NCBI GenBank assembly: GCA_027081355.1
Contig: JALWKP010000161.1
Span: forward strand, 1-33,466
Direction: 5' to 3'
Source: Campylobacteraceae bacterium
GTDB taxonomy: Bacteria; Campylobacterota; Campylobacteria; Campylobacterales; Sulfurovaceae
Length of the DNA: 33,466 bases
Below the pieces are notes generated by a model that saw nothing but the letters and a program-made list of their open reading frames with translations, did no database searches and was not told the DNA's origin. Position numbers and translations under genes: made by a program. Position 1 is the stretch's first letter. Every line of letters starts with the position of its first letter. Below, piece after piece: positions 25,806-30,267 of the stretch.

Positions 25806-27185
25806 GTGAGATTTACAGATTTTAATTTTCACCCCGATATTGCAAAAGGGGTTAAGATTGCGGGGTTTAGGGAGCCTAGCCCTATTCAGCAAGAGGCGAT
25901 TCCGCTTGTAATGGATGGAATCGATTTGGTTGCGCAAGCGCATACCGGAACGGGAAAAACGGCGGCTTTTGGTTTGCCGATTTTAGAAAAAATTGCAAAT
26001 GGCGAAATAGAAAAAGCTTTGGTAATTACACCAACAAGAGAGCTGGCTACGCAAGTTAGCGACGAGTTATACCATTTGGGGCGCTTTGGCGGTATTAGGA
26101 CGCTTGCGGTTTACGGCGGCGTGGGATACGGCAGGCAGATTGCGCTTATAAATAAAGGAGTGCAGATTGTCGTAGCAACGCCGGGGAGGCTTAAAGACCT
26201 TTACCAAAAAGGTAAAATCGACAGCTTTAACCCCGAAATCGTGGTGCTTGACGAAGCAGATGAAATGCTTGATATGGGCTTTTTAGAGAGTGTAAAAGAG
26301 ATTTTCAACTACATTCCGCAAAACCGCCAGACGCTTCTTTTTTCGGCAACAATGCCAGAACCCATAAAAGATTTGGCAGATACCCTGCTTTACAGACCGG
26401 AATTTATTTCAGTTGTCCGTGAAGAGGATGCAACAACAAATAATAAGATAAAACAGAGTTATTTTGTAATAGAAGAGGAACAAAGAGACGAAGTAATAGT
26501 TAATTTGCTTGATAAAGAGAAGTATAAAAAAGCTCTGGTTTTTTGCAGAACCAAAAAAGAGGTTGATAAGCTTGCCGAGCACTTAAAAGCTCAAGGATTT
26601 AATGCCGAGGGGCTTCACGGCGATATTGACCAAATGTTAAGAGATGAAATTGTGCGAAATTACCGCAGAGGGAATATCAGAATTTTAATTGCAACAGATG
26701 TGGCGGCGCGCGGGCTGGATATTAAAGATGTTACGCATGTATTTAATTACCATATACCGTTTGACCCGCAAAGCTATGTGCATAGAATCGGCAGAACCGG
26801 GCGTGCGGGCAAAGACGGCAAAGCGATAACCCTAGTAACCACAAAAGAGTTTAGGGAACTTGCCCGAATAAAAAAAGAAGTCGGCGCCGAAATGGAGCTG
26901 ACAACCATAAGCAGCGGCAAAAGCATATTAAATGATAATGATTTAGAGGCTATTGAAGATAAAATAAATTCTTTGGAAATTTTGCCGGAAATTGATAATG
27001 TCTTAAATTACTTAGATAAAATGGATAAAGAAACAGTGCTTAAAAAGCTGCTTTCTTATATTATTGCAAAAGAAAAATTCGGCAGCGCCAGCACTATTGG
27101 GTATGAGCAGGGCGAAGTTGATAAAATGTATAAAAATTACATTAAAGAAGAAAAAATCAAAAAGAGCAAAAAGAGAAGAAGGTAA
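25806..27185 (+). CDS. DEAD-box ATP-dependent RNA helicase
   Basis: Unwinds RNA duplexes, probably in ribosome assembly or mRNA decay. The start is GTG 25806; the ATG two bases earlier reads straight into TGA. AGGA lies at 25797-25800. The 459 residues show a Q motif FREPSPIQ (21-28), AHTGTGKT (45-52), PTRELATQV, DEAD (149-152), SAT (180-182), ILIATDVAARGLDI and HRIGRTGRAG (326-335). The C-terminal end is short and basic (KIKKSKKRRR), with no clear extra RNA domain, so the subtype (RhlE/CsdA/DbpA) cannot be fixed. The PycB-like gene begins three bases after its stop. Confidence 0.93.
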   Translation: MRFTDFNFHPDIAKGVKIAGFREPSPIQQEAIPLVMDGIDLVAQAHTGTGKTAAFGLPILEKIANGEIEKALVITPTRELATQVSDELYHLGRFGGIRTLAVYGGVGYGRQIALINKGVQIVVATPGRLKDLYQKGKIDSFNPEIVVLDEADEMLDMGFLESVKEIFNYIPQNRQTLLFSATMPEPIKDLADTLLYRPEFISVVREEDATTNNKIKQSYFVIEEEQRDEVIVNLLDKEKYKKALVFCRTKKEVDKLAEHLKAQGFNAEGLHGDIDQMLRDEIVRNYRRGNIRILIATDVAARGLDIKDVTHVFNYHIPFDPQSYVHRIGRTGRAGKDGKAITLVTTKEFRELARIKKEVGAEMELTTISSGKSILNDNDLEAIEDKINSLEILPEIDNVLNYLDKMDKETVLKKLLSYIIAKEKFGSASTIGYEQGEVDKMYKNYIKEEKIKKSKKRRR

Positions 27186-27188
27186 AAA

Positions 27189-28457
27189 GTGTCTATTAAA
27201 TATATCGATGTAATGGATACAAGTTTTTGCACGGGTGTTGATGCTATTTTTAACAATTCTGTAAATAAGGCTGTAATTTTGCCTCTTGCCGAAGCTGCAA
27301 AAGAGAGCGGTATTTCTAATTTTGAAATATCTTTGCCGCATAGATTTATTCAACAATTAAAAAAATTAAATGAAAATCCGTTTGAATTTATTAAAGAGTT
27401 CAGATGGGCAGTAGGCGAAGAGGCAAATTTACAAATTAGGGTAAATGGCTTGAATACAGTATTTAATAAACCTGTAAGCAGCGCTTTGCATAAACTTTTT
27501 ATTAAACTTTGTTTGCAAAACGGAGTGACTACGGTTGCTCCGTATTCTATTTTAAACGATATGAGAAATATTGATTTAATAAGTTATTTAAGCAAAGAGA
27601 ATTTACTTTTAAATGAACCGACGATAACTTTAATGAATGAAAGCGAAAGTAAAATTTTTAATACTGCATATTATAAAAATCTGATTATTAAAATGCTGGA
27701 TTTAGGCATAGAGTTTGACTCTTTGCTTTTTAGGGATGATTGGGGGGTAACTTCGCCGGCGCAAATTTATGAAATTGTTGCAATAGCAAAAGAGATACTT
27801 GGAAAAGAGTCTTTTATAAGGGTTAGCACACGTGATAGAGCCGGGTTTGGGGTATCGTTTTATTTAGCCGCATTAGAGGCGGGGGCAGATGGTTTGGATT
27901 TGGCATCTCAGCCTTTTAGCGGAGGTTTATCAACCCCTGATATGCTTACTATGATACAGATAACTAAAGGAATGGGATACAATTTCGGTGATTTAAAAGA
28001 AGAAGCTTTGATAGAGTATCAAAAATATTTAAAAGAGCAGTTAATTAAATATATTGGCATCAATTTAAATAGGGAAGTTAATACTTTAAACTATTATAAT
28101 CCTCTTTTATTAGATAATATCGATATAGATTTAAAAACGGTCAATGAAGTTATATTTGCAGGAGGGTATGCAAATTCTACACGGGAAATATCTGAAATTT
28201 ATTATAAACAGATAAAATTAAATAAAAAATTTGGAAAATGGAGTAAAATTGATAAATCTTTTGCTCTTTTACTTCTTGGGTATTTAGGCAAAACCCCTTT
28301 TGTTCCTGACCCTGATTTGGTTGAAATTGCCGAAGAACAATCGGGTAAAAAATTTATTACAAAAAATCCTTTGGAGATTGCCGATAAAGAATTTGAGAGA
28401 CTGGAAAAAAACATAATTAATGAAGAAGAGTTTTTGTGTTACCTTATGAAACAATAA
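27189..28457 (+). CDS. Degenerate PycB-like carboxyltransferase homologue lacking catalytic residues
   Basis: Starts at GTG 27189 with a weak ribosome site, three bases after the helicase stop. The 422 residues match the pyruvate/oxaloacetate carboxyltransferase (PycB/OadA) of this phylum along their length: YIDVMDTSF at the start, YLAALEAGADGLDLA (224-238) in the barrel, and LGYLGKTPFVPDPDLVEIA near the end. The key sites differ: RDG is CTG (C14-T15-G16), the carboxylated Lys is R182 (LFRDDWG), and the two metal histidines of HTHETAG are S213 and R215 (VSTRDRAG). No biotin-carrier domain follows. It stands next to pckA, where active PycB is found in relatives. Catalysis is unlikely; a structural or regulatory role, or decay, is possible. 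Confidence 0.75.
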   Translation: MSIKYIDVMDTSFCTGVDAIFNNSVNKAVILPLAEAAKESGISNFEISLPHRFIQQLKKLNENPFEFIKEFRWAVGEEANLQIRVNGLNTVFNKPVSSALHKLFIKLCLQNGVTTVAPYSILNDMRNIDLISYLSKENLLLNEPTITLMNESESKIFNTAYYKNLIIKMLDLGIEFDSLLFRDDWGVTSPAQIYEIVAIAKEILGKESFIRVSTRDRAGFGVSFYLAALEAGADGLDLASQPFSGGLSTPDMLTMIQITKGMGYNFGDLKEEALIEYQKYLKEQLIKYIGINLNREVNTLNYYNPLLLDNIDIDLKTVNEVIFAGGYANSTREISEIYYKQIKLNKKFGKWSKIDKSFALLLLGYLGKTPFVPDPDLVEIAEEQSGKKFITKNPLEIADKEFERLEKNIINEEEFLCYLMKQ

Positions 28458-28560: not shown

Positions 28561-28605
28561 TTATTGCAATAGTAAACAGCTTAAAGCTGTTTACTATTGC
28601 AATAA
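28561..28605. repeat. Perfect 21-bp inverted repeat upstream of pckA
   Basis: Arms 28561-28581 and 28585-28605 are perfect complements with a three-base loop TAA. Each arm includes the palindrome ATTGCAAT (28563-28570 and 28596-28603), which recurs at the pckA promoter. It lies in the 229-base gap between the PycB-like gene and pckA. It may act as a terminator for the upstream gene, as an operator, or both; a short T-run (28614-28618) follows the stem on the plus strand. Confidence 0.85.
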
Positions 28606-28686: not shown

Positions 28687-30267
28687 ATGAGCAAGCTTCA
28701 ACCTAAAGATCTTGAAAAATACGGTTTGAAAGATGTGGTTAATATAATTTATAACCCGACTTACGACAAATTGGCAGAAGATGAAGCGGCTAAAGGCGAA
28801 TGCAGCTTTAGTGACAATAATACTGCTATGGTTGATACAGGCAAATTTACCGGCAGAAGCCCCAGAGATAAATACTTTGTTAAACAGCCTCCATCACAAG
28901 AGCATATCGCTTGGGGAGATATAAATCAGCCAATTTCAAAAGAGATTTACGAAGAGCTGTTTGAATTGACTGCAAGCCAGCTAAGCGGCAAAGAACTTTA
29001 TGTGATAGATGCATTTGCAGGCGCTAGCAAATCGAGCAGAAAATCTATCAGATTTATTACCGAAGTGGCTTGGCAGGCGCATTTTATAGAAAATATGTTT
29101 ATTATGCCGACTGAAGAAGAGTTAGAGAATTTTGAGCCCGACTTTGTGCTTTACAATGCTTGCAAAACTACTAATCCTAACTATAAAGAGCAAAATTTAA
29201 ATTCTGATGTTTATGTTGTATTTAATATAGAAGATAATGTTGCAATAATCGGCGGAACATGGTATGGCGGCGAAATTAAAAAAGGTATTTTTACCATGAT
29301 GAATTACTGGCTTCCGCTTGAAGGCAAGCTCTCTATGCACTGCTCTGCAAATGTCGGGAAAGAAGGTGATGTGTGTCTATTCTTCGGGCTTTCTGGCACA
29401 GGAAAAACTACTCTTTCTACCGACCCGAATCGCGCATTAATCGGAGATGACGAACACGGCTGGGATGACGAAGGCGTATTTAACTTTGAAGGCGGATGTT
29501 ATGCAAAGGTTATCGACTTAAGCAAAGAGAGCGAACCTGAAATTTATAACGCAATCCGCCCGGGCGCGCTTTTGGAAAATGTTGTAGCTGATAAAAACGG
29601 CAAAGTTGATTATTCGGATAAATCAAAAACCGAAAATACCAGAGTTAGTTATACTATTGAACATATCGAAAACCACGAACCTTCTTTAAGCGCAGGACAC
29701 CCTAAAAATATTATTTTCTTAAGTTACGATGCTTTCGGTGTTTTACCGCCGGTTAGCAAACTTACTAAAGAACAGGCTATGTATTATTTCTTAAGCGGAT
29801 ATACCGCTAAAGTTGCAGGAACAGAAAGAGGAATTATTGAACCTGTTACTACATTTAGCGCATGTTTTGGAGAAGCATTTTTGCCGTTGCACCCAACCGA
29901 TTATGCTAAGCTTTTAGGTGAAAAAATAGACAAACACGGGGTAAATGTTTATTTGGTAAATACTGGCTTAAACGGGCAGGGTAAAAGAATGAGCATTAAA
30001 GATACAAGAGCCTGCATTAACGGTATTTTAAACGGTTCTATTAACGATGCAGAATTTGAAACTTTAGAAGTATTTAATTTGCAATTCCCTAAAACATTAG
30101 AAGGAATTAAAGATAACTCTATTTTAAATCCTAAAAATACATGGGAGAGCGAAGAAGAATTTAATAAAACAGTAAGAGAGCTTGCAAAAGAGTTTATTAA
30201 AAATTTCGATAGATATAACAACAGCGGCAGCGAATTCGATTATTCCGCAGCAGGTCCAAAACTTTAA
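28687..30267 (+). CDS. pckA: Phosphoenolpyruvate carboxykinase (ATP)
   Basis: Interconverts oxaloacetate and PEP using ATP/ADP. I choose ATG 28687, with GAGGA at 28678-28682, over the longer in-frame GTG at 28633, which lies inside the promoter. The resulting 526 residues are standard length. Motifs: [12 protein letters not shown] (substrate loop), [12 protein letters not shown], the PEPCK P-loop GLSGTGKT (234-241, K240), IGDDEHGW with the metal Asp, and the C-terminal [10 protein letters not shown] region. All catalytic sites look intact. A terminator hairpin follows at 30273. Confidence 0.97.

Follow-up and report, generated by a model that had tools for sequence, protein, structure and literature searches.

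We consider it probable, at roughly 70%, that the gene at positions 27189 to 28457 (forward strand) of the 33,466-nucleotide stretch of Campylobacteraceae DNA analysed here (the window) encodes a selected pseudoenzyme, that is, the CT barrel of an OadA protein that was kept after its pump had been dismantled and that would now have a non-catalytic role. In the course of events that we favour, the Na+-pumping oxaloacetate decarboxylase would have been taken apart, with oadG, oadB, the biotin domain and the active site all gone, and the barrel and C-terminal helical domain would have stayed, under purifying selection, in five species. The folded protein, probably dimeric as in known CT domains, would have given up carboxyl transfer to become a binding or regulatory protein, and it is probably made together with the DEAD-box helicase encoded directly upstream. 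The host genus is related to Campylobacter, and several of its species have lost the pump genes except for a shortened copy of oadA. This would be a clean example from nature of a membrane pump being taken apart and one soluble subunit outliving its own chemistry. Intact and dead versions occur in one genus, and the non-catalytic roles of a metabolic enzyme subunit can thus be probed there. Annotation of the gene as ‘pyruvate carboxylase subunit B’, furthermore, would ascribe to these genomes an anaplerotic step of which this gene is very probably incapable.

The gene, its flanks and its family

The open reading frame has 422 codons and a GTG start, and its intactness, length and position are as the earlier note had described them; the product is a CT-only OadA homologue that is catalytically dead by sequence. 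The DEAD-box RNA helicase gene deaD (25806 to 27185, forward strand) has its stop 3 bp ahead of the start, and a plausible ribosome-binding site, AGAAGG, lies at the end of deaD. Downstream, an intact pckA, encoding phosphoenolpyruvate carboxykinase (ATP), occupies 28687 to 30267 on the same strand and does adjoin the gene, as had been remarked, at a spacing of 230 bp with a strong hairpin inside. This hairpin is a perfect 22-bp inverted repeat with a 1-nt loop (28561 to 28605, forward strand), the RNA of which is very stable (z −8.1) and which is perhaps a transcript end; its arm has no second copy in the window and is absent from the matching gaps of three other genomes of the genus (G008, G003 and G011). 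No convincing leftover of a biotin domain or of OadB was found downstream of the gene, and G008 has a weak 17-residue OadG-like match (E 0.003, in a tiny search space). In G011, a malic-enzyme-like gene (L037 7707-9044) separates the short OadA form from pckA.

Homology to the OadA/PycB/5S carboxyltransferases spans the whole protein in NCBIfam and PDB searches. The best NCBIfam match has an E value of 1.1e-28, yet stays far under every curated cut-off; the best PDB sequence match is the transcarboxylase 5S subunit (1rqb, E 1.2e-22); and Pfam places the protein below its cut-offs, with PYC_OADA (PF02436) at 21.5 bits versus a cut-off of 27. The CT (beta/alpha)8 barrel and the PYC_OADA C-terminal domain are both present, and the OadA metal site (RD, carbamyl-Lys, HxH) and the catalytic CT site and biotin carrier of PycB are missing. 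A biotin domain of the OadA C-terminal type with MKM is found neither by Pfam, which does detect it in full-length relatives, nor in the alignment, in agreement with the earlier note. That note had called the gene a PycB homologue, which holds for homology and fails for descent from a pycB-pckA pair: judged from sequence, the gene is best described as OadA-derived, not PycB-derived, because in members of the family the locus reads deaD-oadG-oadA-oadB-pckA, the genes of the Na+-pumping oxaloacetate decarboxylase, which points to OadA of that pump as the correct ancestor. A search of genome contigs for homologues returned one distant Syntrophomonas homologue only, and in the open literature we found no known dead OadA or PycB.

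A single-sequence structural model of the protein had a pLDDT of 45 and was useless. A better model, built from a two-row alignment of the protein with the Syntrophomonas homologue (L047), reached a pLDDT of 59 and a pTM of 0.56 and shows eight strands and helices in alternation, followed by a C-terminal part made of helices, and Foldseek matches it to 5S (E 1.7e-14), the Vibrio OadA CT and pyruvate carboxylases at a TM of about 0.6. Because the L047 row is an intact CT protein, this model supports the fold and says little on the pocket; at low confidence, it predicts a TIM barrel with a C-terminal helical domain. The barrel and C-terminal landmarks recognized earlier are thus borne out by the homology searches and by a low-confidence model.

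The locus across the genus

The genus sample comprised 12 genomes, including that of the window (G000), and in five of them, namely G000 (422 aa), G003 (429 aa), G008 (427 aa), G010 (450 aa) and G011 (467 aa), the protein is a short form that consists of the CT domain only and has a damaged active site. These forms end at the start of the biotin linker or shortly beyond, none of the five copies has an internal stop, and in every case the oadA slot sits directly after deaD, with a gap of 0 to 9 bp. By profile scores, neither OadB nor OadG is found in the five genomes, the assemblies of which are 95.6% (G000), 99% (G003), 80% (G008), 63% (G010) and 100% (G011) complete; six other genomes of the genus have OadB (PF03977) at 464 to 510 bits and OadG above its cut-off. 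A single biotin carboxylase gene is detectable per genome, with none in the 63% complete G010, and the one found in G000 may serve acetyl-CoA carboxylase or act as a PycA. Those apparent short forms in other genera that we examined are contig-edge or frameshifted cases, the parts seen keeping the active-site motifs. Outside the genus, among the best matches listed from 397 genomes of the order, frames of about 546 to 700 aa are full length or nearly so.

The earlier note had also suggested a regulator of the PEP/oxaloacetate node. Nothing tested supports such a role; the gene is packed against deaD in all five genomes, and its adjacency to pckA is weak evidence for a partnership, since it is inherited from an oadGAB-pckA operon.

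Loss of the active site

Alignment with a reference of 27 full-length OadA/PycB homologues places the loss of RD, of the lysine and of both metal histidines exactly at the residues named beforehand: the catalytic RD pair (substrate Arg, metal Asp) is C14-T15 (27228 to 27233), the carbamylated Lys is R182 (27732 to 27734) and the metal-binding HTH is S213-T214-R215 (27825 to 27833). The losses extend beyond those noted earlier, with D18 (27240 to 27242) at the active-site Gln position, N86 (27444 to 27446) at the substrate-binding Arg of RGxN, and N329-E333 (NSTRE, 28173 to 28187; all forward strand) at the TSVTP catalytic-Thr loop. For the roles of the R, the Q, the RGxN Arg and the T, we assume those of Rhizobium etli pyruvate carboxylase (R548, D549, Q552, R621, K718, T882). 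The alignment against the 27 intact homologues is clean, with no local shift, which rules out a shifted-residue artefact. The catalytic lysine, the Zn and the OAD architecture have been described (PMC2881705).

The damage is graded among the short forms. G010 keeps RD and HTH and has Ile for the Lys and Tyr for the RGxN Arg; G003 retains the Lys and, of the RD pair, the Asp, but neither the Arg nor HTH; in G008 the Lys survives, and RD and HTH are gone; in the window form and G011, nothing is left of RD, Lys, HTH or the RGxN Arg. Common to all five are the loss of the RGxN Arg and of the second Thr of the TSVTP loop, an acidic residue (D or E) at the catalytic-Gln position, and the new states F119Y, S221G and G328A at sites invariant in the 27 OadAs. 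Identity among the short forms is 30 to 57%, G011 being extremely diverged.

Number of origins

In the gene tree, the five short forms come out together (100/99), a grouping that is unsafe because of long branches; when only one short form at a time is included, it is placed within the genus, imprecisely. A species tree from deaD, pckA, serB, an ABC transporter, metF, gyrB and part of rpoBC, in which some rows are half empty, scatters the short-form genomes, and a tree constrained to keep the five as one group is rejected (AU p 6e-7). In this tree, G011 is sister to G002 (100/99), which has a complete oadGAB. A single origin, with the locus exchanged later, is about as likely as two to four origins in parallel, and under either, lineages without the pump have retained the dead protein. 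As a separate observation, PckA of G002 (L041 7647-9233) is 72 to 76% identical to genus members and 75 to 77% to other genera, gyrB and rpoBC place G002 inside the genus, and the pckA end of its locus may have been exchanged.

It is conceivable, if unlikely, that OadA always had a second, non-catalytic role, for example with the DEAD-box helicase or PckA, and that several species lost the pump independently of one another, the dead barrel being kept each time.

Selection on the short form

A gene that is simply dying, its pump lost and the alpha subunit decaying but still uninterrupted, would fit two observations: the substitution rate of the relic is far above that of its neighbours, and different catalytic residues are lost in each copy. 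Several lines of evidence speak against it. First of all, all five copies are open in species with gyrB only 83 to 92% identical (pairs with both found), and 20 to 26 stops would be expected under neutral drift to the observed divergence. Second, between the relics of G000 and G008, dN is 0.326 and omega = 1 is rejected (pairwise LRT 202). Because the relic's own dS is saturated (the fitted value of 22.9 is meaningless and omega thus approximate), its dN was compared with the dS of deaD (1.09), pckA (1.13) and gyrB (1.28) between the same genomes, which gives about 0.25 to 0.30; with omega at 0.11 for deaD, 0.05 for pckA and 0.03 for gyrB, the relic is clearly relaxed relative to all three. 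Third, a tree of ten sequences gives an omega of 0.075 for the short-form lineages and 0.027 for intact OadA, saturation affecting both, and fixing omega at 1 for the short forms lowers the fit by 247 lnL. Finally, residue retention is non-random: 43 of the 236 (near-)invariant OadA positions are kept in all five forms versus 4.0 expected under random retention per lineage (maximum of 13 in 5000 shuffles), and without the G008 sister the four remaining lineages still share 50 versus 9.6 expected, counts that are inflated in part by shared ancestry.

Neutral evolution of the relic is strongly rejected. The pairwise and tree tests, the open frames and the shared residues together argue for a selected pseudoenzyme and make a decaying gene improbable; as in other pseudoenzymes, catalytic residues are lost within a homologous fold that remains under purifying selection. 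The earlier proposal of a repurposed relic, which had set the intact frame against decay, finds good support in five open copies and in evolution far below the neutral rate, and neither of the outcomes named beforehand as speaking against it, a dN/dS near 1 or residues merely shifted, occurred.

We give still less credence to a protein that is still an enzyme but with changed chemistry, namely a DRE-TIM-like barrel that would do without the canonical metal site and possibly act on another acid. Such an enzyme would be in line with R52, N123, D124, D183, G186 and R211, which are kept in all five forms, several of them near the active end of the barrel, and with the RD and HTH of G010, but no catalytic set is common to the five: G010 lacks the Lys, and the other four, the window form included, have lost metal ligands. 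For the selected pseudoenzyme, we judge a protein partner likelier than an oxo-acid ligand, because in most copies the ligands for the substrate carboxylate and the metal are lost or scrambled.

A second, full-length copy in the window genome

An intact copy with a biotin carrier, which the earlier note had proposed to look for, does exist in G000, where contig C100 carries a full-length OadA/PycB with a biotin domain (608-aa ORF, L003 6861-8687) and without oadB or oadG; no second copy was found in G003 (99% complete) or G011 (100%), so being the helper of an intact copy cannot be the general role of the short form. The C100 copy groups with another family of the order (G054) in the gene tree and was probably acquired horizontally. 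Contamination is an unlikely source, since AroB, which is 80% identical to that of G005 and 73 to 80% to genus members versus 58 to 65% elsewhere, marks the contig as native to the genus. A prozyme-like heterodimer partner regulating the C100 protein is thus very improbable, for although the window genome does hold a full-length OadA/PycB and there are known cases of a dead paralogue activating a living partner (PMC5201418), G003 and G011 have the short form alone and the C100 copy is of foreign origin on a native contig.

Comparison with known systems

The closest likeness is to OadA at the same locus of the same genus, which shares the position between deaD and pckA and homology over the whole CT domain (41 to 43% identity for the window protein, 30 to 54% for the five short forms). 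The window protein, on the other hand, has no biotin domain, OadB/OadG or active site and is about 180 aa shorter. In Campylobacter, PycB (Cj0933c) and PckA (Cj0932c) are neighbours by locus tag, and the CT domain of Cj0933c is homologous (PMC4178425); Cj0933c, however, works with PycA in pyruvate carboxylase, whereas in the window protein neither the catalytic residues nor the biotin carrier is present. The 5S subunit (1rqb), the best PDB match in both sequence and fold, likewise has no fused biotin domain, but it retains the metal, lysine and substrate residues and uses a separate biotin subunit. The AdoMetDC prozyme of T. brucei is also a catalytically dead relative kept by selection (PMC5201418); there, a living partner exists, and in G003 and G011 none was found. 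Finally, among Sulfurospirillum species, S. multivorans has the OadB-like gene of this cluster whereas S. cavolei lacks it (PMC6242987), so that in the latter the membrane subunit is naturally absent beside an OadA/PycB-pckA pair. The S. cavolei OadA/PycB subunit, in contrast to the window protein, is reported in the proteome, with no dead version described (PMC6242987). Taken with the five genomes described here, absence of the membrane subunit therefore recurs in the epsilonproteobacteria.
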